Origin: Akkermansia muciniphila
GTDB taxonomy: Bacteria > Verrucomicrobiota > Verrucomicrobiia > Limisphaerales > BJHT01
DNA: 48,762 nt
NCBI GenBank assembly: GCA_945861535.1
Contig: CAMAUZ010000062.1
Location: 1-48,762 of the forward strand
Direction of reading: 5' to 3'
In this document: in pieces, positions 10,115-45,080 of the stretch
How positions within the stretch are numbered: the first letter of the stretch is position 1
Layout of the letters: every line of letters starts with the position of its first letter
Program-made: the position numbers and the translations under genes
Notes under the pieces: generated by a model
What the model saw: only the letters and a program-made list of their open reading frames with translations
The model's database searches: none
What the model was told of the DNA's origin: nothing

Positions 10115-10192
10115 CTCCCCCTCCGGCTTCTACTCCGCCCCTCCCCCATTGCCCCTTTGCGCTCCGGAGGCTTTGGGCTAAGGCTTGCGGGC

Positions 10193-11791
10193 ATGATTCA
10201 TCAATACGATTTCCTCGTGCTCGGCAGCGGGATTGCCGGGCTGTCGTTTGCGCTGAAGGCGGCGGCGCGCGGGCGGGTGGCGATCATCACGAAGAAGCAT
10301 CGCGCGGAGTCGAACACGAACTATGCGCAGGGCGGCATCGCGGCGGTGATCGGGAAGGAGGACTCGTTCGCGTCGCATGTGGCGGACACGCTCGACGCGG
10401 GCGCGGGGTTGTGCCGCGAGACGGTGGTGCGGACGATTGTCGAGGAGGGGCCGGCGCGGATTCAGGAATTGATCGAGCTGGGGGTGAAGTTCAGCGAGAC
10501 CGAGCGGCAGGGCGCGGAGAAGGGCTTTGATCTCGGGATGGAGGGCGGGCATTCGGCGCGGCGGATATTGCACGCGAAGGATACGACGGGCCGCGAGGTC
10601 GAGCGGGCGCTGCTGGCGGCGGTGGCGAGTCACCCGAACATCCGGGTGTTCGAGAATTTTTTTGCCATCGATCTGATCACGACGCGGAAGCTGGGGCTCG
10701 CGGGCGCGAATCGCTGTGTGGGCGTGTATGTGCTGATGGATGCGGTGGGCACAGTCGGGGCGTTCTCGGCACCGGTGGTGATGCTGGCGACGGGTGGGTG
10801 CGGGAAGGTTTATCTCTACACGACCAACCCCGACATCGCGACGGGCGACGGCGTGGCGATGGCGTATCGCGCGGGCGCGGCGGTGGCGAACATGGAGTTC
10901 ATCCAGTTTCACCCGACGTGTCTGTATCATCCCAAGGCGAAGTCGTTTCTCATCAGCGAGGCGGTGCGGGGCGAGGGCGGCGTGCTGCGGAATTTTTCGG
11001 GGCAGGAGTTCATGGAGAAATATCACGCGCTCAAATCGCTGGCGCCGCGCGACATCGTGGCGCGCGCGATTGACACGGAGATGAAGCGCAGCGGGGCCGA
11101 GCATGTGTGGCTGGACATCACGCACAAGCCGGCACGCTTCGTGATGGAGCGGTTCCCGAACATTTACCAGACGTGCCTGAAGTACGGGATCGACATCACC
11201 AAGGAGCCGATCCCGGTGGTGCCGGCGGCCCATTATCAGTGCGGCGGCGTGGTGACGAATGTCGATGGCGAGACGGACATCGCGGGCTTGTACGCCGTGG
11301 GCGAGGTGGCCTGCACGGGGCTGCACGGCGCGAACCGGCTGGCGAGCAATTCATTGCTCGAGGCCGTGGTCTGCGCGCACCGGGCGGCGCAGCGCATTCT
11401 CGCCGCGCCGCCGGAGCGCGCGACGGTGGCCGTGCCGGCGTGGGAGTCCCGTAACGCGCACAACACGGACGAGCTGGTCGTGGTGTCGCACAACTGGGAT
11501 GAAATCCGACGGCTGATGTGGGACTACGTCGGCATCGTGCGCACCAACAAACGGCTGCAACGGGCGCAGAAGCGCATCGCGAATTTGCAGGAGGAAATCC
11601 TCGAGTATTACTGGGATTTCGTGGTGACGAGCGACCTGCTCGAGTTGCGCAACATCGCCACGGTGGCCGAGGTGATCATCGCGTGTGCGCTGCAACGGCC
11701 GGAGAGCCGGGGGCTGAATTTCAATCTGGATTATCCGCAGGCCGATCCGGCGTGGGCGCAGCGCGAGACGGTGCTGCGGCGGGTGGGGTGA
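10193..11791 (+). CDS. nadB: L-aspartate oxidase
   Basis: A 532-residue FAD enzyme that oxidises L-aspartate to iminoaspartate, the first step of de novo NAD synthesis. The Rossmann dinucleotide loop is [16 protein letters not shown] near the N-terminus, followed by [25 protein letters not shown] with the substrate-site arginine, [40 protein letters not shown] and the flavin-capping [17 protein letters not shown] helical C-terminal domain completes the usual length. The ATG at 10193 is chosen because [13 protein letters not shown] begins the fold. nadA and nadC are not adjacent. It is followed by a long gene-free region without a visible terminator. Confidence 0.96.
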
Positions 11792-11799
11792 GGCGGAGA

Positions 11800-11848
11800 A
11801 AAGCTCCAAGGGCAAAGCTCAAAGCTCAAGGGAAGGGCCAAGGTTCAA
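11800..11848. repeat. Heptanucleotide tract, aaagctc class
   Basis: Units in phase: aaagctc, caagggc, aaagctc, aaagctc, aagggaa, gggccaa, ggttcaa. It starts just after the nadB stop. The same word class returns at 12630 and 48202, and in reverse orientation (gagcttt) at 13434 and 37780. Confidence 0.85.
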
Positions 11849-12160
11849 GCTCCGAGGCGGGCTGCACCGGCGGGCGGGCGAGGGCGCAAACCGTGTCGCG
11901 GGGCGTGGGGCGGAAGCGGTCCGACGGGCTGTTTGCAGGACCGGACAGTTTCACCGCGCCACGCGTAGCCACTGGAGCTTGATGTTTCCGTTGGGCTTTG
12001 GGCGTTAGCCGTTACGACTCAAAGATCGGCGCGCGGGCGATCTGCCGGCTCACGGCGTACTGCGAGCGGAAGCAGTGGGCGAGTCTGCGGCGTCTGGCTC
12101 ACCTTTCCGCGACGGTTCGCGCGGTGGGCAGAACGCTCCGACCACATGGTTACGACTAAC

Positions 12161-12351
12161 CCGTAACCATTCAGTCGAACCGAATCTTTTGGACCACGGA
12201 GACACGATGAACACAGCGGAAAACCACGGACTCGTGGTCGTTCGTCCTTCGCTGATTGGTGATTTGCTGCCGCCGATTCCGTCCCTCGCTCTTCTCTGTG
12301 TTCATCGTGTCTCTGTGGTCGAAGAAAATCGGGCCGACTGAATCGTTACGG
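12161..12351. mobile_element. MITE-like element, copy A, with imperfect terminal inverted repeats
   Basis: The ends (ccgtaaccattcagtcg... and ...cgactgaatcgttacgg) are near-perfect inverted repeats that continue inward through accacggagacacgatgaac and its complement, giving arms of about 50 bases. No transposase is encoded. The element is repeated in reverse orientation at 20762-20949 with close similarity also through the centre. The cacagagacac...gaacacag text resembles interspersed repeats common in Verrucomicrobiota genomes. Confidence 0.8.
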
Positions 12352-12403
12352 CTAAGAACTGCCCGCACCGGCCCGCGCGCTCAGCGCCGTTCCCGATCCG
12401 GGC

Positions 12404-12431
12404 AAAAAAAAGAACCGCCTCCCAGCGGTTC
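12404..12431 (-). terminator. Intrinsic terminator of structured RNA copy 1
   Basis: On the minus strand, stem gaaccgc / gcggttc followed by tttttttt (A-run 12404-12411 on the plus strand). Confidence 0.8.
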
Positions 12432-12572
12432 CATTCTGGCTCCTTTTTCCAAGTGGGGGTTATCCCTTGCGGGCCCTACCCCCACCTCCTTGGGAGTGAG
12501 TAGAGCCGACGATCCCGCACGAAAGCAAAACGGAGAACTACCTATATCGGCTGTCGGTAAAATTACCGACAG
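12404..12572 (-). ncRNA. Candidate structured RNA, copy 1 (unrecognised family)
   Basis: Read on the minus strand from 12572: a perfect hairpin with stem ctgtcggta (12564-12572) / taccgacag (12551-12559); a stretch whose complement at 12525-12545 is base-for-base identical in copy 2 and includes the C-rich word tagttctccg; an aaggagg word; a hairpin at 12485-12453 with outer stem gtggggg/cccccac and inner ccc-gcaa-ggg, a GNRA tetraloop; then a terminator hairpin (12431-12412) and an 8-T run. Copy 2 preserves every element, and the GNRA loop changes from gcaa to gaaa while keeping its class. No promoter was identified. A small regulatory RNA is the simplest reading; an attenuator or a mobile RNA-coding repeat is possible. 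I cannot match it to a known RNA family. Confidence 0.6.
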
Positions 12573-12629
12573 CAACGGGCGCTCGAAAATGGCTGGTGAA
12601 GAGCGCGCTTGCCGCGGAACGCGCTGGGA

Positions 12630-12685
12630 AAAGCTCCAAGCCTAAAGCTCAACGCTCACGGGAAACACCAAGCGACCAAGCCCAA
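12630..12685. repeat. Heptanucleotide tract, aaagctc class
   Basis: Units in phase: aaagctc, caagcct, aaagctc, aacgctc, acgggaa, acaccaa, gcgacca, agcccaa. It lies between the two structured RNA copies. Confidence 0.75.
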
Positions 12686-12936
12686 GCGAGGCGCTGTGAG
12701 ACGGCGAGAATCTCACGGCGCGGAATGTGTGTGAGTTCTCGCCGGGCGAAATCGCGGCGGAAGGCGCGCGCGATGGGCACAACGCGGCATTCATGCCGCC
12801 TCCAGGTGGTCGGGCCAGGAGCGTCCGAATGCGCAGCGACGGATGAACGATGCAGCGGCGTAAACGCCGCTCCCCGACTGCGACGCCAGCACACCGCAGT
12901 GGCACCGGGGGCGCGGCGGATATTTTCGATGTTTGC

Positions 12937-12966
12937 AAAAAAAAGGAACCGCCTTGCGGCGGTTCC
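12937..12966 (-). terminator. Intrinsic terminator of structured RNA copy 2
   Basis: Perfect stem ggaaccgcc / ggcggttcc with a gcaa loop (12945-12966), followed on the minus strand by tttttttt. Confidence 0.88.
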
Positions 12967-13108
12967 AGACTGGCTCCTTCTTCTTCCCGTGGGGGCTGTC
13001 CCTTTCGGGGGCTACCCCCACCTCCTTGGCGATGATTTAGGGCCACGCGCGCACGAGAACGCAAAACGGAGAACTACCTATCCCGGCTGTCGGCAAAAAT
13101 ACCGACAG
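12937..13108 (-). ncRNA. Candidate structured RNA, copy 2 (unrecognised family)
   Basis: Same architecture and order as copy 1, in the same orientation 365 bases away. Minus strand from 13108: hairpin ctgtcgg/ccgacag (13087-13108); the conserved C-rich stretch (plus-strand 13061-13081, identical to 12525-12545 of copy 1); a variable segment; aaggaggtg; a hairpin 13021-12989 with inner ccc-gaaa-ggg; then ggagccag, the terminator hairpin and the 8-T run. The variable segments differ freely while stems and the C-rich stretch are kept, as expected for functional RNA rather than a recent neutral duplication. A short reading frame crossing the second hairpin is not maintained between copies (a 2-base length difference before the terminator), which argues against coding. 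Confidence 0.6.
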
Positions 13109-13433
13109 AGGCGGGCGCACCGCTGCCGACCGTGGGCCTTCAGAAAACGCGGTGGACGAGGGCGGTTTTCTTGGAACCGCTCCGACAATGCTCCCAGCGC
13201 AAAACGCAAAGTTCCTGGGAAACACCAGGCCCAATCTGCTCTGCCGTCGGCACGCGGCTTTCCTGCCGCTTTCGCGCGGTGCGCTCCGGGCGGGTGCGAA
13301 CACGGCGCCGTGTGCGAACCGTAACTGACCGTGAACGCCGCGTGCCGGCGGCCCCGCCGGGGCATACCCTCCGATCTCCGTCGCCTCCTCGCCTTCGTCC
13401 ACCGCCCCATCCCAATGCCGCAAATTGTTCCTT

Positions 13434-13461
13434 GAGCTTTGAGCTTTAATCTTTGAGCTTT
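13434..13461. repeat. Heptanucleotide tract, gagcttt class
   Basis: gagcttt, gagcttt, aatcttt, gagcttt in phase, shortly upstream of the AAA+ ATPase gene. Confidence 0.85.
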
Positions 13462-13518
13462 TTCCCGTTCTTCATTCCCATCTTGTCTCCTCCCCTGCCG
13501 CGCTTCACGCTCGACGCC

Positions 13519-15465
13519 ATGCCCACCGAATCCGAATTCCTCGCCGATCCCGCCGCGCCGCGCTGGATCCGCGACGCGCTCCGCTTTCTGCCCGTCAAAT
13601 CGCAGTTCATCCTCGCGGGCAACATTCGCGACCGCTACCCGTTCCTCCTCGAAGCCGCCCAGCCGCCCAAGCCCGCGCAGCCCGCCACCGACACCCAGCC
13701 CGAGCTGCCCGCCGTCCCCGCGCAGCCCGCCAAATACGTCCCCCTTGCCCTCACCAGCTACGCCACCGAATCGCTCAAACTCCGCGGCTACCAGTTCTTC
13801 CTCGAATACAACGCCGTCGAAGGCTTCGGCGTCGTCACCCCGCGCGGCGAATCCGCCGACACGACGCGCAAGTTTTTCAGCGACACCTTCAAACTCACCT
13901 TCGACCCCACCGGCCGTGCCAAATGCAGCCTCGCCAAAGCTCTCGAAACCCTCGACCGCCTCGTCGCGCACAAGGACCATTTCATCGCCGTCTTCCTCGA
14001 CTTCGCCTCGCGCTACGCCAAGCGCGCCGACGTGCTCGACCCCGCCGAGCACGAGTTCTTCAGCAAGGCCCTCGTGCAATGCCACGGCGCGCAACCGCAC
14101 ATCACCGCCACCCATTCCCTCGCGCAGTTCAATTCCGTCTTCTGGCTTTGCGACAAGGAAAACGACCTGCCCGACTGGCTCGTCCTCAACAACCCCCGCC
14201 TCCGCGTCGTGACCATCCCGCGCCCAGATCATCTCCTGCGCCGCGCGCTCATCACGCAGATCACGCCCAGCCTGCCGGGCTGCTTCGAGGCCACCGACCA
14301 GCGCCGCGAGGATTTGCACGACGTCTTTGTCGAGCAGACCGAGGGCATGGTGCTCACCGACGTCATCGCGATCACGCAGCTCTGCCGCCGCGAACAGCTC
14401 CGCTTCGAGGACATCGGCGAGGCCGTGCGCCGCTACAAACTCGGCGTCACCGAAGACCCGTGGAAACGGCTCGACCGCAAAAAAATTGCCAACGCCGGTG
14501 ACTTCATCCGCCGCCGCGTCAAGGGCCAGCAGGCTGCGATTACCAAGTCCCTCGACATCATCAAACGCGCCGTCACCGGACTCTCCGGCTCGCAAGGCTC
14601 GCGCGCCGGCGGCCGTCCCCGCGGCGTCATGTTCCTCGCCGGCCCGACCGGCACCGGCAAAACCGAACTCGCCAAAACGCTCACCGAACTCCTCTTCGGC
14701 GACGAGCGCGCCTACATCCGCTTCGACATGTCCGAGTTCTCCGCCGAGCACGCCGACCAGCGCCTCATCGGCGCGCCGCCCGGCTACATCGGCTCCGACA
14801 TGGGCGGCGAACTCACCAACGCCATCCGCGAGAAACCCTTCTCCGTCGTGCTCTTCGATGAGATCGAGAAAGCCCACCCGCGCATCCTCGACAAGTTCCT
14901 CCAGATTCTCGACGACGGCGTCCTCACCAGCGGCCGCGGCGAACGCGTGTACTTCAGCGAAGCCGTCATCATTTTCACCTCCAACCTCGGCATCTATAAA
15001 TACGACGACGACGGCCGCCGCGTCCTCAACGTCCAGCCCGCCGAGCCGTACGAACAGGTCGAGCAAAAGGTCCGCGCCGAGATCGCCGACTACTTCAAGC
15101 TCCAGCTCAACCGCCCCGAGATCCTCAACCGCATTGGCGAAAACATTGTCGTCTTCGACTTCATCCGCCCCGACGTCGCCGTGCAGATTTTCGACAAAAT
15201 GGTCGGCGGAATCCTTGCCCGCCTCGCCGACCAGCAGCGCATCACCGTGACCCTCACCGACCCCGTCCGCACCACCCTGCGCGACCACTGCCTGCGCGAC
15301 CTCGGCAACGGCGGCCGCGGCGTCGGCAACCACCTCGAAGCCTGGCTCATCAACCCCCTCGCCCGCGCCCTCTTCGACGCCGACATCACCGCCGGCGGCA
15401 CCGTCACCATCACCTCCCTCGAACTCACCGACGGCGTCCCCACCGTAAGGTTGCAGGCGGGGTGA
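13519..15465 (+). CDS. AAA+ ATPase: degenerate N-terminal AAA-like half fused to a ClpA/B-type D2 module
   Basis: A 648-residue cytoplasmic protein. Residues 330-648 are a Clp/Hsp100 second AAA+ module: Walker A GPTGTGKT (375-382), pore-loop region PPGYIG, Walker B VVLFDEIEKAHP (443-454), sensor-1 FTSNLG, arginine-finger region LNRPEILNRIGEN, and a D2-small domain at the C-terminus. Residues 15-320 resemble an AAA domain without a P-loop: FILAGNIRDRYPF, a Walker B-like IAVFLDFASRY (156-166), a sensor-like LRVVTIPRPD and a helical lid with AITQLCRR. ClpB N-domain, middle coiled coil and ClpP-binding loop are not seen, so this is not a general chaperone. It heads a module with a membrane coiled-coil protein and a Ser/Thr kinase. 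The ATG at 13519 is chosen because the preceding 22 codons translate a heptad tract. Confidence 0.8.
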   Translation: MPTESEFLADPAAPRWIRDALRFLPVKSQFILAGNIRDRYPFLLEAAQPPKPAQPATDTQPELPAVPAQPAKYVPLALTSYATESLKLRGYQFFLEYNAVEGFGVVTPRGESADTTRKFFSDTFKLTFDPTGRAKCSLAKALETLDRLVAHKDHFIAVFLDFASRYAKRADVLDPAEHEFFSKALVQCHGAQPHITATHSLAQFNSVFWLCDKENDLPDWLVLNNPRLRVVTIPRPDHLLRRALITQITPSLPGCFEATDQRREDLHDVFVEQTEGMVLTDVIAITQLCRREQLRFEDIGEAVRRYKLGVTEDPWKRLDRKKIANAGDFIRRRVKGQQAAITKSLDIIKRAVTGLSGSQGSRAGGRPRGVMFLAGPTGTGKTELAKTLTELLFGDERAYIRFDMSEFSAEHADQRLIGAPPGYIGSDMGGELTNAIREKPFSVVLFDEIEKAHPRILDKFLQILDDGVLTSGRGERVYFSEAVIIFTSNLGIYKYDDDGRRVLNVQPAEPYEQVEQKVRAEIADYFKLQLNRPEILNRIGENIVVFDFIRPDVAVQIFDKMVGGILARLADQQRITVTLTDPVRTTLRDHCLRDLGNGGRGVGNHLEAWLINPLARALFDADITAGGTVTITSLELTDGVPTVRLQAG

Positions 15466-27592: not shown

Positions 27593-28054
27593 ATGATTGA
27601 CCTGCTCGCCGAGCTTACGACCGTGGCGGCCACGAGCGCTTTCAGCACCATGGCCGATTGCGCGCTGACCGCGCAGCCCGCCGCCGCCGTCGCCCTCAAT
27701 GGGGAACGGTGCGTCACCAGTTCGGTGCGCTACAGCGGCCCGGTCTCCGGCGTGCTGCATCTGCACGCGCCCGGCGGCCTCGCCCGCCAGATCAGTGCCA
27801 CGCTGCTGCACCAATCCAGCACGGACGACGTGCCGGATGAACTGGTCGCCGACACGATGGGTGAGTTCACGAACATGGTGATCGCCAAAATCCAATCGCG
27901 CCTGACCGACCGCGGCACGCCGTGTGTCATTACGCCGCCGGACCTCGAGTGGCACCCGCACTTCACCCCGCGCGGCACGCCGGGGCCGCGGTGTCGCACG
28001 CTGCCGTTCGCCTGTAAACACGGGCAGTTGGTCATCGAACTCCTGCTCACCTGA
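27593..28054 (+). CDS. CheX-like chemotaxis phosphatase domain protein
   Basis: A 153-residue cytoplasmic single-domain protein. The segment DTMGEFTNMVIAKIQSRL (residues 88-105) matches the CheC/CheX active-site helix, with the phosphatase pair Glu (E91) and Asn (N94). SGPVSGVLHLHAPGGLARQI fits the preceding strand-turn-helix, and the C-terminal strand is GQLVIELLLT. CheX removes phosphate from response-regulator receivers such as CheY. The next gene, 22 bases on, encodes a receiver protein and is the obvious candidate partner; this pairing is inferred from position. Fold assignment is by motif, overall similarity is modest. Confidence 0.7.
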   Translation: MIDLLAELTTVAATSAFSTMADCALTAQPAAAVALNGERCVTSSVRYSGPVSGVLHLHAPGGLARQISATLLHQSSTDDVPDELVADTMGEFTNMVIAKIQSRLTDRGTPCVITPPDLEWHPHFTPRGTPGPRCRTLPFACKHGQLVIELLLT

Positions 28055-28076
28055 ACGCCGAAACTCCCTCCCCTTT

Positions 28077-29306
28077 ATGCCGCCCAAAATTCTCACCGTA
28101 GATGACAGCAAGACGATCCGCATGATCGTCACCAAGGCCTTCAAGCCCTACGATTGCGCCGTGCTCGAAGCCGGCAACGGCCTCGAGGGCTACGCGCTGG
28201 CCGCCAAGGAAAAACCGGACCTCATCATTCTCGACATCACCATGCCCGTGCTGGACGGCTACGGGATGCTCAACCGCCTCCGCGCCGACCGCGAGCTGAA
28301 GCAGATCCCCGTCATCATGCTCACCGCCGAGGTCGGCCGCGACAACGTGATCAAGGTCGCCAAGCAGGGCGTGCGGGATTACGTGGTGAAGCCGTTCAAG
28401 GAAGACCTGATCGTCGAGCGCGTCGGCCGGGTGATCGAACTCAAGCTCCGCAGCGCCGCCACCGCCCGCGCCCGCAACTACGATGCACCGCTCAAGCTGG
28501 TCGTACTCGACGACAAGCCCGCCATCGCCGAGCAAATCCGCGCCGGCGTGGCCGACGCGGGCTGGGAGATTCTCCCCAAGGCCGTGCCCGCCGAGGTGCT
28601 GGAACTCTGCCAGCAGCAGCCTGTCGATGCCGTGCTGGTGAGCCTCGCCCTGCCCGAAGACGCCGCGTTCACCACCTTCGAAGCACTGCGCGGCAACCCG
28701 CAGACCCGCGCGCTGCCCGTCTTCGGATTGAGCGTGAAAACCGCCGCGGACGAGCAGGCCCGCGCGGCGCATCTGGGCTTCACCGCGGTGATCAACAAGC
28801 CGATCGACCTGGATGATTTGAAGTTCAAAATCGCGCGCGCCCTCAACCTCGACACGTCGCCCAAATTCTTCCGCGAGCAAAAGGACGCACTCATCCTCAC
28901 GATCCCCGCCGGCTTCAACGCCAGCATCGCCAACGAAATCTCCTGCCTGCTCAAGACCAAGGTCGCCGCTTCGGTGGACGCCGGGATCAACAAGCTGGTG
29001 CTGGACCTCAGTCAGGCCCGCGCCGTTGATGTCACGCTCATCCGGCTGGCCATCGAGGCGGCCCAGTGGTGCGTCCGCCTCTCCCTCAAACAACGCGTTG
29101 TCGGCTCTGCCAACCTCATCAAGGACTGCAAGAATTATGAAGAAGCCAAGGACTGGCGGTTTGTCGCTTCTCTCGACGAGGCCCTCACCGCCGCTGACGG
29201 CAAGGAGCCGGCACCCGCCGCCGCCGCCCCCGCCCCTGCCCCTGCCGGCACCGCCCCCGTTCCCGAGTCTGCGCCGGCACCCGCGCCGGAGGCCATCGCC
29301 GCCTGA
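28077..29306 (+). CDS. Response regulator: receiver, receiver-like and STAS-like domains
   Basis: A 409-residue protein. Residues 1-125 are a CheY-like receiver: acidic pair D9-D10, phospho-acceptor D53 (LIILDITMP), T83 (VIMLTAE) and K105 (VVKPFKED). Residues 140-265 repeat the receiver fold (LKLVVLDDKPAIAEQI ... VDAVLVSLALPED ... VFGLSV ... AVINKPIDL), but the phospho-acceptor position is not Asp, so it is probably a pseudo-receiver. Residues 280-370 look like a STAS/anti-anti-sigma domain (ALILTIPAGFNASIANEI, KLVLDLSQARAVDVTLIRLA). A Pro/Ala tail of about 40 residues ends the protein. The ATG at 28077 is chosen because MPPKILTVDDS begins the receiver. The output may be protein-protein signalling rather than DNA binding. 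Confidence 0.8.
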   Translation: MPPKILTVDDSKTIRMIVTKAFKPYDCAVLEAGNGLEGYALAAKEKPDLIILDITMPVLDGYGMLNRLRADRELKQIPVIMLTAEVGRDNVIKVAKQGVRDYVVKPFKEDLIVERVGRVIELKLRSAATARARNYDAPLKLVVLDDKPAIAEQIRAGVADAGWEILPKAVPAEVLELCQQQPVDAVLVSLALPEDAAFTTFEALRGNPQTRALPVFGLSVKTAADEQARAAHLGFTAVINKPIDLDDLKFKIARALNLDTSPKFFREQKDALILTIPAGFNASIANEISCLLKTKVAASVDAGINKLVLDLSQARAVDVTLIRLAIEAAQWCVRLSLKQRVVGSANLIKDCKNYEEAKDWRFVASLDEALTAADGKEPAPAAAAPAPAPAGTAPVPESAPAPAPEAIAA

Positions 29307-32714: not shown

Positions 32715-34190
32715 ATGCCGATTGAAAAAATCGTCGTCCTCGAGGACGACCTAATCGTACGTAAAAATCTCGAACAGCAGTTGCGCTCCCGCCGCTACGA
32801 CGTCGCGGCGGTTTCCACGATTGCCGCCGCCCAAGAGTGCCTCGACCGCGACACCTTCGACCTCATGTTCGTCGATGTCCGCCTTCCCGACGGCGAGGGC
32901 ACCGAACTCCTCCGCCAGCTTCAGCAGCGGCCCCAGCGGCCCATCGTCGTGATGATGACCGGCCACAGCTCGGTCCAGTCCGCCGTCGAGTGCATGCAGA
33001 ACGGGGCCTTTGACTACCTGATCAAGCCCTTCTCCGCGGACCAGCTCGATGTCACGCTCAAGAAGGCGGAAAGCTTCAACCAGCTCGTCAAGGTCAACCA
33101 GTTCCTCAACCGCGACGGCGGTGGCGACGACGGCCAGTCCCTGCTCGGCAACAGCCCCCCGATGAAGGAATTGCGCGAGCTGATCCGCAAAGTCGCCCGT
33201 ACCGAGGCCACCGTCCTCATCCAGGGCGAAAGCGGCACCGGCAAGGAACTCGTCGCCCGCGAAATATTCCGCAACAGCCCGCGGATCAATGCCCCCTTCA
33301 TCAAGGTCAACTGCGCCGCCGTCCCCGAGGAACTCATCGAGAGCGAATTCTTCGGCCACGAAAAAGGCTCCTTCACCGGCGCGGGGACCAAGCGCGAGGG
33401 CCGCTTCGAACTGGCCCACAGCGGCACCATTCTCCTCGACGAAATCAGCGAAATCTCCCCCAAGGTCCAGGCCAAGCTCCTGCGCGTCCTGCAGGAACGC
33501 GAACTCGAACGCGTCGGCGGCAGCCGCACCATCAAGGTCGATGTCCGCGTCGTCGCCACCACCAACCGCCACCTCGAGCTGGCCGTCGAGCGCAAGGAAT
33601 TCCGCCAGGACCTCTTCTTCCGCCTCAACGTCGTCCCCATCATCGTCGCCCCGCTGCGCGAGCGGCAGTCTGACATCCTGCTGCTGGCCGAAAAATTCCA
33701 GCAGCGCTTCTCCCGCAAACACGGCCTCCGCACCCTCGGCATCGCGCCCGAATGCCGCGACGCCCTCCAGTCCCACTCCTGGCCCGGCAACGTCCGCGAA
33801 CTCCAGAACGTCATCGAGCGCGCCGTCATTTTCTGCGGGGACGACGATTCGCTCCGCCTCGAGCACCTCGGGCTCCCCGCCGCCGCCAAAGCCGTGCCGG
33901 TCAACCTTCCCCCGCTCGCCGCCCCGCCCTCCGTTGCCGTCCCCGCCGCCCCCCCCCTCAGCGAGCCGGTCCGCACGCTCACCCTGGCCGAAATGGAGAA
34001 GCAGCAAATCCTCCACGTCCTCGCCAAAAACCAGGGCAACCGCACGCTCACCGCCAAGCTCCTCGACATCAGCGTCCGCACCCTCCGCAACAAACTCAAC
34101 GAATATGGCGTCGCCGGCAAAGACACCGACACCGACGACGGAGAAAGCCCCAAACAGCTCGACTTCGCCTCCGCCTCGGCGTCCGCGTAG
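32715..34190 (+). CDS. Sigma-54-dependent response regulator (NtrC/FlrC type)
   Basis: A 491-residue transcription activator. The receiver domain 1-120 has E10/D11/D12, phospho-acceptor D54 (LMFVDVRLPD), T82 and K104 (YLIKPF). The AAA+ sigma-54 activator domain spans about 143-385: Walker A GESGTGKE (171-178), the sigma-54 contact loop GSFTGA (218-223; the common form is GAFTGA), Walker B TILLDEISE (238-246), and WPGNVRELQNVIERA. A Fis-type helix-turn-helix ends it (EMEKQQILHVLAKNQGN ... AKLLDISVRTLRNKL). Given the flagellar operon 3.6 kb away and the CheX/receiver genes next door, a role as flagellar class activator is plausible. No partner histidine kinase is encoded in the window. Confidence 0.93.
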   Translation: MPIEKIVVLEDDLIVRKNLEQQLRSRRYDVAAVSTIAAAQECLDRDTFDLMFVDVRLPDGEGTELLRQLQQRPQRPIVVMMTGHSSVQSAVECMQNGAFDYLIKPFSADQLDVTLKKAESFNQLVKVNQFLNRDGGGDDGQSLLGNSPPMKELRELIRKVARTEATVLIQGESGTGKELVAREIFRNSPRINAPFIKVNCAAVPEELIESEFFGHEKGSFTGAGTKREGRFELAHSGTILLDEISEISPKVQAKLLRVLQERELERVGGSRTIKVDVRVVATTNRHLELAVERKEFRQDLFFRLNVVPIIVAPLRERQSDILLLAEKFQQRFSRKHGLRTLGIAPECRDALQSHSWPGNVRELQNVIERAVIFCGDDDSLRLEHLGLPAAAKAVPVNLPPLAAPPSVAVPAAPPLSEPVRTLTLAEMEKQQILHVLAKNQGNRTLTAKLLDISVRTLRNKLNEYGVAGKDTDTDDGESPKQLDFASASASA

Positions 34191-37817: not shown

Positions 37818-38753
37818 CTACCGCAGATAATCCATCAACGACTGCTTGAAGACGGTCGCGCCGCTCTGGAGCGCGACCTGATAGGCGTTCTGGGTCTGGT
37901 TCAATTGCACCAAGGTCGTCGCGAGGTCGGCATCGACTTCGTTGGAGGTCAGGCCGGCCACCGAGGTCTCGCGCTGCTTGAGGATCGCGCCTTCGGTCTC
38001 GAGGCGGGATTGCAGCGCGGCGTTGGTGCCGAGGTTAAAGACAAGGTTGTCCTCGTCCTTGCCGAGCGCGGCGCGGTCGGTTGCGGCCACGGCGGCGGTG
38101 TCGCCCGCGAGGAGATGATTCTGGAGCGAGATGAGGTGGTTGAACAAATCCGCGCCCATGCGCGGGTCGGCGATCAGGCCGTGCGCGCCGGTGCCGCTGC
38201 TGTTCGCGCCGGGCACCTGGGTGGATACGGTGACGCCCTCGGAGACTTCATGCTCGGCCAGCGTTTCGTTGCCCTGGTAGGTCACGCTGGTGACAACGCC
38301 GTTGGAGTCGGTGGCGAGCACGAACGGCGGCTGATCGGTCTTGGTGCCGGCGAAGAGGAAATCGCCACGGTTCTTGGTGTTGGCCACGTTCACCGCGGTC
38401 TTGAGCAACTGCGTGATCTCGTTGGCGTACACGCGCAATTCCTGCGGGGACTTCAGGCCGTCGGCGAGCGTCGCGATTTCACCGGCGCGATCGGCGATGG
38501 ACTTGAGGGAGCTGATGGCCGTGAAGGACGCGGTGCCGAGTTCCTTCTGGCGGATGATGTTCTGCTGGTATTGGCCGATTTTCTCGCTCTCGGCCTGGAG
38601 ATCGAGCGTGCGGCGGACGGCGGAGGGATCGTCCTCGGGATTCTGAATGCGCTGGCCGGTGGCGGCCTGAGTTTGCAACTGGCGCTGGCGGACGCTCAGG
38701 TTGTTGAGCTGGTCGATCAGCGAGGTGGGGAGGGAGTTGGCGGTGACGCGCAT
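37818..38753 (-). CDS. flgL: Flagellar hook-filament junction protein FlgL
   Basis: A 311-residue flagellin-like junction protein (also called HAP3). The N-terminus MRVTANSLPTSLIDQLNNLS with QLQTQAATGQRIQNPEDDPSAV is the conserved D0/D1 helix with the family signature 'SGxRixxpsDDP'. The C-terminus TSNEVDADLATTLVQLNQTQNAYQVALQSGATVFKQSLMDYLR is the matching D0 helix with the usual Leu-Arg end. It is exported through the flagellar type III system and sits between FlgK and the filament. It is the last gene of the minus-strand operon, 24 bases after flgK. No csrA or fliW follows, which is often the case in other phyla. Confidence 0.95.
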   Translation of the reverse strand: MRVTANSLPTSLIDQLNNLSVRQRQLQTQAATGQRIQNPEDDPSAVRRTLDLQAESEKIGQYQQNIIRQKELGTASFTAISSLKSIADRAGEIATLADGLKSPQELRVYANEITQLLKTAVNVANTKNRGDFLFAGTKTDQPPFVLATDSNGVVTSVTYQGNETLAEHEVSEGVTVSTQVPGANSSGTGAHGLIADPRMGADLFNHLISLQNHLLAGDTAAVAATDRAALGKDEDNLVFNLGTNAALQSRLETEGAILKQRETSVAGLTSNEVDADLATTLVQLNQTQNAYQVALQSGATVFKQSLMDYLR

Positions 38754-38777
38754 GGTTGGTTCCCGGTGGATGGGTCA

Positions 38778-40214
38778 TCAGCCGTTGCCGAGGCCGATGG
38801 CGGTTTGGAGCATGCTGTCGATGATGTTGATGATGCGCGCGGAGGCCTGGTAGGCGTGCTGGAATTTCATCATGTCGGTCATTTCCTCATCGAGGGACAC
38901 GCCGCTTACGGACTCGCGTTGCGCGCCCAGCATTTTTTGCACGACCGACTGGTTGGCGACCAGGCTGTTCACCGAGGCGAGGGCCTGGCCGAGGTCGCCG
39001 ACAGTTTTGGAGTACTGCTGGGAGACGGTCTGGTTGCCGAGGCTGGCCACTTTTTTGTCGGCGAGCTGGGCGAGGGCGAGGGCGACCCGGTTGTCGCCCG
39101 CCGCACCGGCGACCGCGGCGGCCTGGATGGACGCCGGGCTGGTTTTGACGGTGGCGGTGACGGCGAGCGTGGCGGCGGTGGTGCCGGTGAAGAAGTTTTG
39201 TCCGGTGCTGCCGTCCAGGCCGAAGCCGGTGCTGTAAATCGCGTTGACCTCGGTGGCCAGACCCGCAGCCAGGTCATCGAGTCCCGTCTGGAGCGCGGCC
39301 AGGCCGGTGTCGCGGGCGTCAATGGTGCCCTGCAGGCGGCCGCCATTCGGGGTCACGGCCACCCCGCCGGTGACGGTGCGGACGAGCCTCTGGCCGCCGC
39401 CCGCGTCGTAGGTTTCGAGCGTGTCCAAAACCGTGTCGCCGGAGACGAGCGTCACGCCGCCGACCTCGAGGTCGAGGCTGTTTCTGGCGTTGGTGCTGAT
39501 GGTGGTTTTGGTGAGCGTGGAGAGGGCTTCGATTTTCTGCTGCCGCAGGTCGCGCAGATCGTTGGCGGCGCCGGAGCTGCCAGATTCCAGATCGAGAATC
39601 CGGCCGTTGAGTCCGGCGATTTCGGCCAGGGTGGTGTTGACCTTGGCGACATCCGACTGGAGTGAGCTGTCAAGCGTTGTGCGCGTGCTGCTGAGGCGGG
39701 CGGCGGTTTGATTGAGCTGCGCGGTGAAGTCCTGCGCCTTGGCGGCGAGGACCTGGCGTTGCGACAGCGAGGTGGGATCGGTGGCCAGCCCTTGAAAGCC
39801 CTTGAACAATTCGGCGAGCCGCGTGGCGAGGCCGTTTTGTCCGGTGACGCCGCCGGCGGCCGCGGCGCCGTTGGCTCCGGCGGCCCCGGTGTTGACGTCC
39901 TGGCCGAGGCCGGCCTGGGCGTATTGCAGGCCCTGCTGTTCGGCGTCGAGCGCGCCGCGGACGCTGGTTTCAACGCGAATCTGCTCGTCGAGGAGGGTGT
40001 CGCGAATCTGCGTGATCGCGGTGACATCCGCGCCGGTGCCCTGCGCGCCGAGCCGCGAATCCTTCAGCGGCGATGAAGTTTGGAGCGTGACGCGCTGGCG
40101 GGCGTAGGCGGGGTTGTTGACGTTGGCCAGATTGTGCCCGGCGACCTCCATGCCCTGCGAATTGGCCTGGAGGGCGCGGGCCGCCATGTCGAGATTGCCG
40201 AAAAGTCCGAGCAT
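38778..40214 (-). CDS. flgK: Flagellar hook-associated protein 1 FlgK
   Basis: A 478-residue hook-filament junction protein. The N-terminal rod/hook family motif is MEVAGHNLANVNNPAYARQRV (MLGLFGNLDMAARALQANSQ precedes it), and the C-terminal helix reads VSGVSLDEEMTDMMKFQHAYQASARIINIIDSMLQ, the standard FlgK/FlgE end. The middle is Ala/Gly/Thr-rich with the paired-domain segment SGSSGAANDLRDLRQQKIEALS. It is shorter than enterobacterial FlgK (about 550), the missing part being in the variable domain. It lies 13 bases downstream of the putative flgN chaperone, its expected partner. Confidence 0.96.
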   Translation of the reverse strand: MLGLFGNLDMAARALQANSQGMEVAGHNLANVNNPAYARQRVTLQTSSPLKDSRLGAQGTGADVTAITQIRDTLLDEQIRVETSVRGALDAEQQGLQYAQAGLGQDVNTGAAGANGAAAAGGVTGQNGLATRLAELFKGFQGLATDPTSLSQRQVLAAKAQDFTAQLNQTAARLSSTRTTLDSSLQSDVAKVNTTLAEIAGLNGRILDLESGSSGAANDLRDLRQQKIEALSTLTKTTISTNARNSLDLEVGGVTLVSGDTVLDTLETYDAGGGQRLVRTVTGGVAVTPNGGRLQGTIDARDTGLAALQTGLDDLAAGLATEVNAIYSTGFGLDGSTGQNFFTGTTAATLAVTATVKTSPASIQAAAVAGAAGDNRVALALAQLADKKVASLGNQTVSQQYSKTVGDLGQALASVNSLVANQSVVQKMLGAQRESVSGVSLDEEMTDMMKFQHAYQASARIINIIDSMLQTAIGLGNG

Positions 40215-40227
40215 AAATTCGCGCGGT

Positions 40228-40725
40228 TCAGCCGACCGCTTCGTAGAGCGGCCGCGGCTGGGCGGGGGGCGGCGACTTCTTTCCGTAGCCGTTGTACACG
40301 AGCGGATCGCGGCTGGGGAAGAGCGTGTTGACGACCCGCTGCATTAGGTCCACCGAGCGGCTGAGCAGGAGATGGTTTTGGCGGACGCGCTGCTGGACGC
40401 GCGCGAGCAGGCGGTTGTTTTCCTCGACCAACGCCTGCACGAGCGGCCGGTAGTCCGGCGGCAGATCGCCGAGCAACTGGTTGAAGGTGGTCTCGGCGGG
40501 CCGCAGAAGCGCGCCGGCCAGCGTCTGCCGGCAGGTTTCGCGCGCGGCGCGTACGTCGGTGAGGACGACGCCCTGCGCCTCGATGCGCGCGACGAGCTGG
40601 TAGAGATCCTCGGCGGCGCGGGCGAGGATGAGTTCCTGCTGTTGATCGAGCAGGGCGAGCATTTCGCCGTACTGCTGCAGTTCGTGGCGCAGGGCGGCGA
40701 TGAGGGATTGGAGATGTTTAATCAT
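40228..40725 (-). CDS. flgN: FlgN-type flagellar export chaperone
   Basis: A 165-residue, nearly all-helical protein. The long N-terminal helix IKHLQSLIAALRHELQQYGEML and LLDQQQELILARAAEDL match the FlgN layout (helix with LxxxL and a conserved 'ExLxxxDxxxL' spacing); the second long helix is VQALVEENNRLLARVQQRV, QNHLLLSRSVDLMQRVV. A Pro/Tyr-rich tail ends it. FlgN holds FlgK and FlgL unassembled before secretion; the position directly before flgK and flgL supports the name more strongly than the sequence alone. The ATG at 40725 overlaps the end of flgJ by 8 bases; the 25 extra codons upstream are Pro/Arg-rich shadow of flgJ. Confidence 0.8.
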   Translation of the reverse strand: MIKHLQSLIAALRHELQQYGEMLALLDQQQELILARAAEDLYQLVARIEAQGVVLTDVRAARETCRQTLAGALLRPAETTFNQLLGDLPPDYRPLVQALVEENNRLLARVQQRVRQNHLLLSRSVDLMQRVVNTLFPSRDPLVYNGYGKKSPPPAQPRPLYEAVG

Positions 40726-41116
40726 GGAGCGCAGAGAAGGCCGGCGGGCGCAGCGCGGACGCGGCGGCGGCGGCAGTGGCAACGGAGGCTTTGAGATCAA
40801 GCTGGCGGTCGAGCTGGGTCTGGAGCGAGCTGGCCAGTCCGAACGCGCCGGTCTGACCGAGCGTGCTGGCGAGGTGGAAATTGACCATGTCCTGGTAGTT
40901 CTCCTTGCCGCTGTTGCCCGGCGTGTCCCTGGACTTGAGCAGCGGCTGCCGGGCCTGTTCGAGAATCTTACGCAGGAACATGGTCTCGAATTCGCGGCAG
41001 GCGGTGCCGAGTTTTTCCGGCGTGCTCAGGCCGGCGGGCCGGTCGAAGCCATCGCCCGGCAGGCCCATGAGACTGGGCGGGGCAAGCGTGGCGATGGGGA
41101 GGGAGTGGAGGTTCAT
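40718..41116 (-). CDS. flgJ: FlgJ-type rod-binding protein (single domain)
   Basis: A 132-residue protein that contains only the rod-binding domain: ACREFETMFLRKILEQARQPLL is the conserved 'ac.qFEsmflrqmlk.mR' helix, followed by SGKENYQDMVNFHLASTLGQTGAFGLASSLQTQL. The C-terminal glucosaminidase domain of enterobacterial FlgJ is absent, as in many phyla, so rod passage through peptidoglycan must use another enzyme. The ATG at 41116 is chosen because the upstream frame translates a GC-rich hairpin repeat. It overlaps flgN by 8 bases and is separated from flgI by an unusual 183-base gap. Confidence 0.88.
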   Translation of the reverse strand: MNLHSLPIATLAPPSLMGLPGDGFDRPAGLSTPEKLGTACREFETMFLRKILEQARQPLLKSRDTPGNSGKENYQDMVNFHLASTLGQTGAFGLASSLQTQLDRQLDLKASVATAAAAASALRPPAFSALHD

Positions 41117-41147
41117 GGCGAATTCCGGTGAAGGATTTTTCCGGGGA

Positions 41148-41260
41148 GGCGGAGCGCGGCCTTCCGGCCGCTTCCGCGTGTGACAGTCCAGGGTGGTTCG
41201 AACGCACTGTTCCCGCAGCAACCTGAAGCGGCGTAAACGCCGCGCTTCGACTGCGCACGG
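41148..41260. repeat. GC-rich hairpin repeats in the flgI-flgJ gap
   Basis: gcgcggccttccggccgc and gaagcggcgtaaacgccgcgcttc (41225-41248). A matching pair of hairpins (gcggcattcatgccgc and agcggcgtaaacgccgct) lies with similar spacing at about 12784-12868, so this is an interspersed element placed inside an otherwise compact operon. Confidence 0.7.
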
Positions 41261-41299
41261 CGGTTTGGTTGCATGGTGGCGTGGGAAAGCGGGTTCATA

Positions 41300-42412
41300 T
41301 CAACGCAGCAACAGTTCCGCGTGGAGCGCGCCGGCCTGCTTCATCGCGAGGAAAATGGACATCATGTCGCGGGGCGTGACGCCGAGGGAATTCATGGCGG
41401 CGGCGACCTTCTCGACGGTCGGCAGTTCGGGCAGGGCCACGAGCGAGGACTTTTGCTCGTTCACCTTGGTGTCGGTGCGCGGCGTGATGGCGGTGGTGCC
41501 CGAACTCAATGGCGCGGGCTGCGAGACATCGAGCGTCGAGGCGATGCTGATGGTGAGGTTGCCGTGCGAAACCGCGCAGCTCGAGATGCGCACGCGGGCC
41601 GTGGCCACGATGGTGCCGGTGCGCTCGTTGATGATGATGCGCGCCGGAATGTCGGGCTGCACCTCGATGGCCTCGATGAGCGCGATGAAGGTGACGAGAT
41701 CGTCATCGCGCCCCGCCGGGAGGGAAACGCGGACGGTGGTGGAATCAATCGACTTGGAGCTGCCGGGGAATTTTCCGTTGATCGCCTCGGCCATGCGCGC
41801 CGACGACGTGAAGTCCGGCTCGCGCAGCAGCAGTTCGAGGCGGCGCTCCTGCACGAGCTGCGTGGGGATTTCCTGCTCGACCAGCGCGCCGCCGACGATC
41901 TGGCCGACGGTCGGATGATTCTTCTGCACGGAGGCGCCGCCGCCGCCCTCGGCCCCGCCCGAGATGCCGCCGACGGTGATCGGTCCCTGCGCCACGGCGT
42001 ACACCTTGCCGTCCGCGCCCATGAGCGGGCTTTGCAGCAGGACGCCGCCTTGCAGCGATTTGGCATCGCCGAACGAGGAGACGACGACATCGATTTTCGC
42101 GCCGGATTTTTTGAACGCGGGGATTTGCGCGGTGATCATCACGGCGGCGACGTTCTTGGCGGTGAGCGCGACCGGGGGGACGTTGACGCCGTAGCGTTGC
42201 AGGAGGTTGGCCAGCGACTGAAGCGTGTAGGCAGGGTTCTTGTCACCGTCACCCGCCAGGCCGACGACCAGGCCGTAGCCGACCAACTGGTTCTCGCGGG
42301 CACCGGCGACCATCGCGATGTCCTTCACGCGCGAGCCGGCGACGCCGGGCAGGGTGCCGGCGAGCAGCAGTGCGAAAACCCAGGCCGGCGTGGAGAAAAA
42401 GCGCGCGTGCAT
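41300..42412 (-). CDS. flgI: Flagellar P-ring protein FlgI
   Basis: A 370-residue periplasmic protein forming the P ring around the rod in the peptidoglycan layer. The signal peptide is PAWVFALLLAGTLPGVAGS, and the mature N-terminus SRVKDIAMVAGARENQLVGYGLVVGLAGDGDK is highly typical. Further family blocks are VPPVALTAKNVAAVMITAQIP, DVVVSSFGDAKSLQGGVLL and the C-terminal ALNSLGVTPRDMMSIFLAMKQAGALHAELLL-like end (here AAMNSLGVTPRDMM). Length is normal. It follows flgH by three bases. Confidence 0.97.
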   Translation of the reverse strand: MHARFFSTPAWVFALLLAGTLPGVAGSRVKDIAMVAGARENQLVGYGLVVGLAGDGDKNPAYTLQSLANLLQRYGVNVPPVALTAKNVAAVMITAQIPAFKKSGAKIDVVVSSFGDAKSLQGGVLLQSPLMGADGKVYAVAQGPITVGGISGGAEGGGGASVQKNHPTVGQIVGGALVEQEIPTQLVQERRLELLLREPDFTSSARMAEAINGKFPGSSKSIDSTTVRVSLPAGRDDDLVTFIALIEAIEVQPDIPARIIINERTGTIVATARVRISSCAVSHGNLTISIASTLDVSQPAPLSSGTTAITPRTDTKVNEQKSSLVALPELPTVEKVAAAMNSLGVTPRDMMSIFLAMKQAGALHAELLLR

Positions 42413-42415
42413 GAT

Positions 42416-43075
42416 TCAAAAGGGGCTGACTTTGTCCCACACGCGGGTGAACCAGCCGCGCTTCTGCGAATCGCTGACGCCGCCTTTGGAGACGAACTTG
42501 ATGGTCGCGTCGGCGATGTTGTAGCTGAGGACGGTGTTCGCCGTGGTGACATCCTCGGCGCGCACGGTGCCGCGCAGAATGGCTTCCTGGGTCTCGCCGC
42601 TGAAGGACGTCTCGCGCCGGCCTTCGATGACGAGATTGTGGTTGGGCAGCACCTCGATGACCCGCACGGCGACGCGCGTGTTGATGCTCTCCGAGTTGTT
42701 GATCGAGCCGCCGCCGTCGAAGTCCTTCGCACCCGAGAGTTTCAAGGCCGGATACTTCCCGCCCTTGGTCAGCAGGCCGCTGGCGGAGGGACCATAGAGA
42801 AAGCTGGAGATGTTGTAGTCGGCGCTGCTCTTGCGCGCGGTCTTGGTGTTGTTCTGCTTCGTCGCCGTGTTGTTCTCCTGCACGATGATCGTGATGATGT
42901 CGCCGACGCTGCGGCCGCGCCGGTCGGCGAACATCGAGTGCGGCTGGTCGGTCTTCCACAGCGATTGCGCGTGGACGTCGAGCGGGGCGGCGAGGCCGGT
43001 GAGGGCGACGGTGACGGCGACGCCGAGGACGCGCGCGAGCCCGGATTTACAGGGTGACGAGGATGGTTTGTTCAT
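42416..43075 (-). CDS. flgH: Flagellar L-ring protein FlgH, apparently without lipobox
   Basis: A 219-residue outer-membrane ring protein. The mature start AQSLWKTDQPHSMFADRRGRSVGDIITIIVQE and later VRVIEVLPNHNLVIEGRRE, EAILRGTVRAEDVTTANTVLS and the end GWFTRVWDKVSPF are typical FlgH. The signal peptide (LGVAVTVALTGLAAPLDVHA) ends in a signal-peptidase I type site, and no Cys follows it; standard FlgH is a lipoprotein with a lipobox Cys. The only Cys (C9) is before the hydrophobic core. The ATG at 43075 overlaps the end of flgA by 29 bases; the open frame further upstream is flgA shadow. Confidence 0.94.
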   Translation of the reverse strand: MNKPSSSPCKSGLARVLGVAVTVALTGLAAPLDVHAQSLWKTDQPHSMFADRRGRSVGDIITIIVQENNTATKQNNTKTARKSSADYNISSFLYGPSASGLLTKGGKYPALKLSGAKDFDGGGSINNSESINTRVAVRVIEVLPNHNLVIEGRRETSFSGETQEAILRGTVRAEDVTTANTVLSYNIADATIKFVSKGGVSDSQKRGWFTRVWDKVSPF

Positions 43076-44057
43076 TGCGGACCTTGCCGTGAAACTCACG
43101 TTTGGTTTGGAGATTGCGGATGCGGATGGTCTGCCCGGGGATGCCGTCCTCGAGCACTTCGACCTTGATCGACACGCTGAGCGCGCCGTCCTGGACGATG
43201 GCTTCGGCGACGCTGCCGCGCAGCACGACGGGGCGGACGCGCACCGAACGCACGCCGAGCGGCTGGCCCGCGGCCACGAACTCGGCGAGTTCCAGCGTGT
43301 CGTCCTCGGTGGTGATCGCGCCGAGCGGCTCGCGCAGGGCGAGGACATCGCGGCGCTCCGGCACGAGGTCGGCGTCGCGCAGCTTGGTCCCGCGCTTGAG
43401 CTGCGAGCGGGCGATGAGGACGTCCCGCATGATTTTCGCCTGCAAAAACAACTGCCAGCTCGCGACGGCTTCCTGCGTCGTGCGGAGTTCAAACCGGACG
43501 ATGAAACTGGCGCTCACGCCGCTGGTGGGCAGGTCGAGGATGCGCAGGGTGAAGGGATCGTCGGGGATGTTGACGGGCGTCCAGGGGCGGACGAAGCGGA
43601 GTTCCAGCTCGCCGCGGTCCTTCACGAATTCGCGCTGGAGCGTGTCGGTGAGGTGCTGCTTGAGTTCGGTTTCGTCGAGCGCGCGGAGGCGGCGGGTGAT
43701 GCGCACCTGCGGCGCGCCGGACCAGGAGCTGGTGGCGAGTTCGGGCGCGTTGCGGGCGAGCCACTCGGTCACCTGGGCGCGGGAGTAGGTCACGGTTTGC
43801 GCCAGCGCCGGCGCGGCGGCGAGGCGGATTTGCGGGATGAGGACCGGCGGATTGGCGGCGGGATTTCCCGCGACCAGGTGGTGCAGAAAAATGCCCGTGC
43901 CATCGACCTGGGCGACGGGCAGCAGTTCGAGCGTGGCGACGGCGACCGCGCCGGGAGTGCTTGGAGCGCGCTCCGCGGCGAGGGCGCCGGCCGCCAGCCA
44001 CAAGCAGCAAAAGCCAACGGCGCCGAGCAGTAACGCCCGACGCCAGGGAGACACCAC
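43047..44057 (-). CDS. flgA: Flagellar basal-body P-ring formation chaperone FlgA
   Basis: A 336-residue exported protein. The signal peptide is PWRRALLLGAVGFCCLWLAAGALA. The C-terminal half carries the SAF/FlgA chaperone domain: IMRDVLIARSQLKRGTKLRDADLVPERRDV, GQPLGVRSVRVRPVVLRGS and the end VLEDGIPGQTIRIRNLQTKREFHGKVRNEQTILV. The N-terminal half is longer than in enterobacterial FlgA and contains an additional beta-rich region. The frame is open to an ATG at 44255 overlapping the flgG stop, but those codons translate a perfect hairpin repeat and a Ser/Arg-rich stretch, so I prefer the GTG at 44057 (or 44054). FlgA helps P-ring assembly in the periplasm. Confidence 0.85.
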   Translation of the reverse strand: MVSPWRRALLLGAVGFCCLWLAAGALAAERAPSTPGAVAVATLELLPVAQVDGTGIFLHHLVAGNPAANPPVLIPQIRLAAAPALAQTVTYSRAQVTEWLARNAPELATSSWSGAPQVRITRRLRALDETELKQHLTDTLQREFVKDRGELELRFVRPWTPVNIPDDPFTLRILDLPTSGVSASFIVRFELRTTQEAVASWQLFLQAKIMRDVLIARSQLKRGTKLRDADLVPERRDVLALREPLGAITTEDDTLELAEFVAAGQPLGVRSVRVRPVVLRGSVAEAIVQDGALSVSIKVEVLEDGIPGQTIRIRNLQTKREFHGKVRNEQTILVTL

Positions 44058-44165
44058 CTGGAAACCCCCGAGCCGGCAGGCTGGGACGTGCGGGCTCCGC
44101 AGGTGGCAAAGGGAGGGTGAATTTTCCGAACCGAGGGGAATTCCGTTGCCGTCGTGAAACGCGGC

Positions 44166-44232
44166 GGAGCGCCGAGCATTGCTCGGCCTTGAGCGGTTTG
44201 CGTCCCTCGTGCCGAGCAATGCTCGGCGCTCC
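44166..44232. repeat. Perfect 22-base inverted repeat between flgG and flgA
   Basis: Arms ggagcgccgagcattgctcg(gc) at 44166-44187 and its exact complement at 44211-44232; each arm is also internally palindromic (cgagcattgctcg). It lies within the stretch that would encode the long N-terminus of flgA, which argues for the later start. Confidence 0.88.
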
Positions 44233-44254
44233 AGTTTATCGCAAGGCGTTTTCA

Positions 44255-45037: not shown

Positions 45038-45080
45038 GGTAAAAAATCAGGGGTGAAAAATCAGCGGGGGCGGAATCCGT

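Follow-up and report, generated by a model that had tools for sequence, protein, structure and literature searches.

In Pseudomonas aeruginosa, PrrF1 and PrrF2 are tandem sibling small RNA (sRNA) genes, each of which was discovered by its repressor site together with its intrinsic terminator; the siblings are 95% identical and controlled by Fur (PMC4211561). Palindromes have been described at other siblings. At csrB and csrC, an 18-nt palindrome is bound by UvrY (PMC4682653), and a palindromic sequence upstream of rsmX, rsmY and rsmZ is given as a potential GacA site (PMC2375449). In Csr sRNAs, the GGA motifs are located in loops or unstructured stretches (PMC4211561). For the Planctomycetes-Verrucomicrobia-Chlamydiae group, few sRNA families are on record: an Rfam-based count of 2022 listed 8 (PMC9029176).

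The window analysed here, 48,762 nucleotides long, is contig C62 of genome G000 (7.9 Mb, 169 contigs). A tandem pair of unrecognised structured RNAs had been reported on its minus strand in an earlier note, and the pair was present there as described (copy 1 or w1, 12404-12573; copy 2 or w2, 12937-13109). The two copies were identical in 135 of 173 aligned columns, and a blastn search with copy 1 against the whole G000 genome returned only the places of the two copies. Like PrrF1/PrrF2, the copies are tandem siblings with their own terminators; unlike that pair, they are 78% identical, lie 364 nt apart and carry an unrelated palindrome, and Hfq was not found in G000 or in its congener G001 (control positive in 5/14). 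The locus is best explained as a pair of sibling sRNAs, each about 130 nt long and under the control of an operator, that would work in trans by way of their invariant 5' ends, a reading in which our confidence is evenly balanced.

The tandem units and their counterparts in a congener

Each copy consists, in this order, of a 22-bp palindrome, the block ATAGGTAGTTCTCCGTTTTGC, a variable linker, an AAGGAGG/GTGGGGG hairpin, a purine-rich GGAG link and a terminator. The middle region of both copies reads CCAAGGAGGTGGGGGTAG..CCCG(C/A)AAGGGA..CCCCCAC. The parts named before were all found, namely the arms ctgtcgg/ccgacag, an identical 21-mer, AAGGAGG, a gtggggg/cccccac hairpin with a GNRA loop (GCAA in copy 1, GAAA in copy 2) and terminators with eight T; the 21-base stretch that had been called C-rich is T-rich instead (4 C and 9 T of 21). 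The features are as follows.

12404-12573, minus strand: copy 1, the downstream unit, from palindrome to T-run; covariance model R1 matched 12405-12573 with 196.8 bits (copy in the model by construction)
12551-12572, minus strand: palindrome of copy 1, CTGTCGGTA-ATTT-TACCGACAG, putative DNA operator; core 12552-12571, 0 mismatches
12525-12545, minus strand: invariant block ATAGGTAGTTCTCCGTTTTGC of copy 1, putative promoter core and RNA 5' end
12485-12491, minus strand: AAGGAGG of copy 1; alignment columns 83-89, the same in all 4 copies
12452-12486, minus strand: GTGGGGG/CCCCCAC hairpin of copy 1, inner CCC-GCAA-GGG
12404-12432, minus strand: intrinsic terminator of copy 1, with a 9-bp stem closed by a GGGA loop and a run of 8 T
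12937-13109, minus strand: copy 2, the upstream unit, from palindrome to T-run; model R1 matched 12939-13109 with 194 bits (copy in the model by construction)
13087-13108, minus strand: palindrome of copy 2, CTGTCGGTA-TTTT-TGCCGACAG, putative DNA operator; core 13088-13107, 1 mismatch
13061-13081, minus strand: invariant block of copy 2
13021-13027, minus strand: AAGGAGG of copy 2
12988-13022, minus strand: GTGGGGG/CCCCCAC hairpin of copy 2, inner CCC-GAAA-GGG
12937-12966, minus strand: intrinsic terminator of copy 2, with a 9-bp stem closed by a GCAA loop and a run of 8 T
12584-12622, minus strand: conserved element upstream of copy 1, GTTCC..CTC.TC, possibly an extra regulator site
13138-13178, minus strand: conserved upstream element before copy 2, GGTTCCAAGAAAACCGCCCTCGTC, with the same possible role

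The sole congener of G000 among the 97 genomes searched, Verrucomicrobiota bacterium LBMAG_Verrucomicrobia_hypo.bin2 (G001; BJHT01), carries the pair in the same order (C298:1398-1565 and 1920-2090), as found by blastn and by model R1. Thirteen alignment columns grouped copy 1 with the first G001 copy (g1_1) and copy 2 with the second (g1_2), one column grouped the copies by genome, and none grouped them crosswise. Because the columns group by position and not by genome, the duplication predates the split of the two species. On this comparison of sequences, the event is the duplication of a free-standing RNA gene, both copies of which are old, retained and not homogenised. The columns invariant across the copies were 24 of 25 in the block and 9 of 9 in the AAGGAGG segment, against 7 of 27 in the linker.

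In G000, the pair lies on the minus strand between a gene with a Pfam FAD_binding_2 domain (10157-11791, plus strand), which we take to be nadB-like, and an AAA-ATPase gene (13453-15465, plus strand), whereas the G001 pair has a different neighbour, an ilvD-like gene upstream. The units were kept while the neighbouring genes changed, as expected of a free-standing sRNA. When the two loci were compared with MAFFT, alignment was good across the units and over some 100-130 nt ahead of each palindrome, and the spacer between the units (12933-12702) showed just 13-22 identical columns of 40 per block. The upstream conservation between G000 and G001 is partly a dispersed intergenic repeat.

Repeats of this type, CCTTGAGCTTTGAGCTTT, were located in the window at 11806, 12629, 13186 and 48208 on the minus strand and at 13430, 37776 and 48371 on the plus strand; these 7 matches compare with 3 in the 8.9-kb G001 contig L005 and 0 in five shuffled windows, and in both genomes every sRNA unit is preceded by one repeat. 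Directly beyond the 3' end of copy 1, at about 12190-12352, inspection by eye showed an imperfect inverted repeat, each arm about 55 bases long (cagtcgg..accacagagacacgatgaacacag / ctgtgttcatcgtgtctccgtggtcc..cgactg), which may be the remnant of a small mobile element.

It is very improbable that the locus is a mobile or selfish element, a phage part or a small protein gene and not an RNA gene. A mobile element would fit the different neighbourhoods of the pair in the two species and the dispersed repeat before each copy, but there are two copies per genome, blastn against plasmid and phage records gave no match, and the exact half-operator-plus-block pattern was absent from the viral contigs. 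Against a small protein gene, no frame with a common start and stop was seen by eye across the four copies.

Terminators and predicted folds

Folding was compared with dinucleotide shuffles and gave z values of -3.99 for copy 1 (0 of 200 shuffles as good), -3.16 for copy 2 (1 of 200), and -3.19 and -4.51 for the two G001 copies. Terminators with 9-bp stems, GNRA loops and T-runs were found in 4 of 4 copies, each copy thus having its own, as a free-standing sRNA should. The terminator loops of the four copies (GGGA, GCAA, GCGA, and GAAA) are four different GNRA loops. A generic terminator scan of 11700-13700 returned 3 sites against a shuffle mean of 2.6, so the scan alone gives the terminators no significance; their conservation does.

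Preservation of the loop class had been taken as a sign of selection on RNA. In the middle hairpin, the loop is GCAA in both copies of the first type and GAAA in both of the second, and the change counts as one event because the difference is one between copy types; the terminator loops with their four GNRA variants are the better evidence. The parallel appeal to stem maintenance found no backing in covariation. Among the four sequences, 0 of 30 pairs were changed on both sides, no measure rose above the shuffle control, and most pairs never vary; maintenance of the stems is not demonstrable by covariation because they hardly vary. RNAalifold, with an extra weak helix, counted 1 such pair of 38. 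The terminators are well supported and the middle hairpin is plausible, while covariation is absent and not contrary.

The palindrome as a candidate operator

The palindrome had been read as the 5' hairpin of a 170-nt RNA, which would start just before it and of which a third match in G001 (C185) would be a decayed or truncated copy. We regard this RNA as unlikely, even though the palindrome of copy 1 folds as a perfect hairpin of 9-10 bp and pairing was kept in 93.3% of cells among five sequences. One of its 9 pairs, the outer pair at C185, was changed on both sides, which is not above the shuffle control (179 of 500 shuffles scored as high), and such a change would fit RNA or DNA. The C185 match (31.2 bits with model R1) covers the palindrome and the block, and the sequence after it is unrelated to the rest of the RNA. 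It leads into a short gene with an AraC-type helix-turn-helix (HTH), with hisG on the other side, and the short AraC-type protein has no close counterpart in G000 (best identity 32% or less). By eye, the upstream TTCC..AAACCGC element may be present at C185 too; the alignment did not place it there.

The palindrome-plus-block pattern was found at five places only, two in G000 and three in G001, and the reversed control gave 0. With up to 3 mismatches, the bare palindrome had 19 sites in G000 and 15 in G001, and these loose matches are uninformative because the control counts were alike (18 and 12). With at most 1 mismatch, there were 2 sites in G000, which are the pair and leave none elsewhere in that genome, and 5 in G001 (the pair, C185, C30, and C289), where composition predicts 0.042 per genome of 7.9 Mb. 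The C30 site lies between the later possible starts of two genes, one for a ThuA-domain protein and the other for a HisKA_3 sensor kinase; a receiver-domain protein follows the kinase. At C289, a receiver protein has its possible starts 87-150 nt downstream of the site, and a PAS sensor kinase comes next. No block follows the palindrome at either site.

Both one-mismatch sites are overlapped by open frames of coding-like composition, so their intergenic status rests on the later start codons. A frame test, in which stop-to-stop frames of at least 150 aa with coding-like composition were sought and the four sRNA sites were set apart, placed 3 two-mismatch G000 sites and 17 of the 23 three-mismatch sites examined (of 24) under such frames; C30 and C289 were under them as well, and C185 alone was free. 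The test fails to separate real from chance palindromes because C30 and C289 also overlap frames. Since two-component genes are common, the company of C30 and C289 could be chance. By Pfam, the receiver proteins at both sites have no output domain, and no DNA-binding regulator for the palindrome was found. The receiver protein after the HisKA_3 kinase (L065, G001:C30:8000-27000, at 11374-11904, plus strand) has a receiver domain only and may be either truncated or short by nature. Because the palindrome is reminiscent of a lux box, LuxI (PF00765) was searched for; it matched in 0 of 2 genomes, but the control also matched nowhere, so that this result carries no weight. The palindrome is presumably unlike a Fur box.

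The occurrences of the palindrome outside the RNA, with the block at C185 and beside two-component genes at C30 and C289, are the reason for reading it as DNA: more probably it is an operator than an RNA hairpin, and the regulator of that operator is probably of the two-component type. With an operator, the transcript would be about 130 and not 170 nt long. The same occurrences, in which the palindrome stands beside other G001 genes without the rest of the RNA, speak against the 170-nt form, as does a 21-column length difference directly before the palindrome, where no promoter-like sequence was seen. Of the earlier proposal, the comparison with sibling sRNAs was sound, and the 170-nt RNA with its first hairpin as an RNA element became the less likely part.

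A consensus scan of 11700-13700 gave no sigma-70-type promoter. Immediately ahead of each palindrome the DNA is rich in GC, shows little conservation and does not look like a -10 region, and right after the palindrome comes the invariant block; on these grounds, transcription appears more likely to start within the block than before the palindrome. Reading the block as a sigma-54 or sigma-28 promoter was set aside on visual inspection, since the spacing was wrong or the match was limited to copy 1. A second conserved element, GTTCC..AAAACCGC.CTC.TC, is located upstream, with the gap of 21 columns between the copies and a larger distance from the palindrome in copy 2; this difference would correspond to about two helical turns. 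By eye only, the core of the block, GGTAGTTCT-CCG, looks similar to GGTAGTTCTTCCG, the operator core at C30.

As two operator-controlled siblings, each copy would be a gene in its own right, encoding a small RNA that acts in trans. Its promoter would carry a palindromic operator of 20-22 bp, TGTCGGTA-N4-TACCGACA, for a dimeric regulator, and the invariant block after the operator would hold the promoter core and the RNA 5' end. Transcription would run for about 130 nt through the variable linker and the AAGGAGG/GTGGGGG hairpin to the intrinsic terminator. The regulator would most likely be a two-component response regulator, of the NarL/FixJ type at a guess, and its action on both operators would let one signal switch both siblings. 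What the sequences show directly is the presence of two orthologous copies in two species amid different neighbours, together with the terminators, the invariant block, and the palindromes with their further sites; we infer the start site, the role of the operator, the kind of regulator and the pairing with targets discussed below. The layout differs from that of csrB: the palindrome here stands directly before the block, whereas E. coli csrB has TGTAAGN6CTTACA centred at about -183 (PMC4682653), and comparison with this quoted GacA/UvrY consensus gave no agreement.

Two further signalling proteins were noticed elsewhere in the window (27924-29306 and 32715-34190, both plus strand), one with two receiver stretches and one with a receiver, a sigma-54 activation domain and a Fis-type HTH.

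Possible modes of action and distribution

If the siblings act in trans, the invariant 5' UUCUCCGUUUUGC would pair with purine-rich ribosome-binding sites on mRNAs without Hfq. The earlier suggestion that the supposed C-rich word pairs with such sites is possible for TTCTCC, but an exact search with the 10-mer complement AACGGAGAAC, which has low power, gave no common target: apart from the pair itself, the word occurs at 5 places in G000 and at 8 in G001, and inspection of the 13 contexts by eye showed no common gene start.

Alternatively, the pair may be a CsrA decoy, like RsmY/RsmZ or CsrB/CsrC, whose GGA motifs would bind CsrA and free mRNA targets, for example flagellin; our analysis makes this rather doubtful. 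Like CsrB/CsrC and RsmX/Y/Z, the copies are sibling sRNAs with several GGA, and CsrA was present in 2 of 2 genomes (G000 and G001), neither of which gave Hfq. The operator-driven sibling layout also resembles csrB/csrC under UvrY (PMC4682653). From TTCTCC on, the four copies contained 7, 5, 5, and 6 GGA against 2.5, 2.6, 1.8, and 2.5 expected (p 0.003, 0.097, 0.019, and 0.018) and 4, 3, 3, and 2 ANGGA (p 0.001, 0.011, 0.002, and 0.085), all by mononucleotide shuffles. With 5-7 GGA per copy, the several motifs of Csr/Rsm sRNAs are there, but the enrichment is modest, significant in some copies only, and the copies are not independent. Unlike the loop positions cited above for Csr sRNAs, the GGA here are mostly paired: when folding was started from TTCTCC, all three bases were at least 50% unpaired in no more than 3 of the 23 motifs, and the other 20 were at least partly paired. 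Moreover, csrA of G000 adjoins fliW, and FliW is already described as a protein antagonist of CsrA (PMC7652899). Base pairing by the invariant 5' end is ranked before the decoy because the GGA are mostly paired and FliW is described as such an antagonist.

The fliW and csrA genes of G000 stand together with cheD and flagellin (L018, G000:C3, 33-2643), csrA being between fliW and flagellin, and the flagellin leader CTAAGGAAAGGAATCCCTATG has two GGA by the start codon. A flagellar cluster was also seen on the contig of the pair (window 37818-45833, minus strand), with a flagellin N domain (37818-38753), a FlgK domain (38778-40214) and, by eye, more flagellar-looking genes.

The claim that no named RNA family fits the locus was borne out by Rfam 15, which gave 0 matches in the window at the gathering threshold and 6 sub-threshold matches in 12300-13200 at E up to 10; the lack of an Rfam match likewise sets the pair apart from CsrB/C and RsmX/Y/Z. 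One resemblance was to CcsR1 (RF02791), the RNA with a conserved CCUCCUCCC motif, at 16.6 bits against a gathering threshold of 65.3 and on the opposite (plus) strand at 12962-13024; the two have no more in common than this low score and the notion of a C-rich word.

Among 97 genomes, blastn matched 2, G000 and G001. Model R1 matched 3 of 293 genomes of the order (G000, G001, and weakly G066) and 2 of 384 of the class (G000 and weakly G390); the matches in G066 (27.1 bits) and G390 (27.4 bits) were dropped, as they resembled the model mainly at the terminator-like end. The block pattern with up to 2 mismatches was found in 4 of the 384 class genomes, that is, G000 and three with single two-mismatch sites, where the reversed control gave about 10 matches by our own count. 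The exact half-operator-plus-block pattern was found in two stretches of the genome contig collection, both BJHT01. These sets are samples of the larger order and class, the model searches had stricter filters, the patterns in the collection were exact, and G001 lies outside the list of 384. The check that had been proposed, a covariance model run on related genomes, found the G001 pair and the third match at C185, with no full copy elsewhere in the sets searched. No description of this RNA was found in the open-access literature on verrucomicrobial small RNAs, in the parts consulted, a scope that mostly leaves subscription journals aside. Judged by these searches, the pair is apparently a new, lineage-restricted sRNA family.

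A genus-specific, two-component-controlled sRNA pair may even do the work of RsmY/RsmZ with unrelated sequence and operator, as a convergent pathway from kinase to sRNA to CsrA (or to ribosome-binding sites) in a lineage whose two genomes yielded no Hfq; this is a speculative and quite unlikely extension. The interest of the pair lies mostly in the possible operator and the two-component link. The candidate operator attached to the pair offers a way to look for its regulator, in genomes that gave no Hfq. Should control by a two-component system be shown, along with CsrA or ribosome-binding sites as the target, a familiar signalling layout would have been invented here a separate time.
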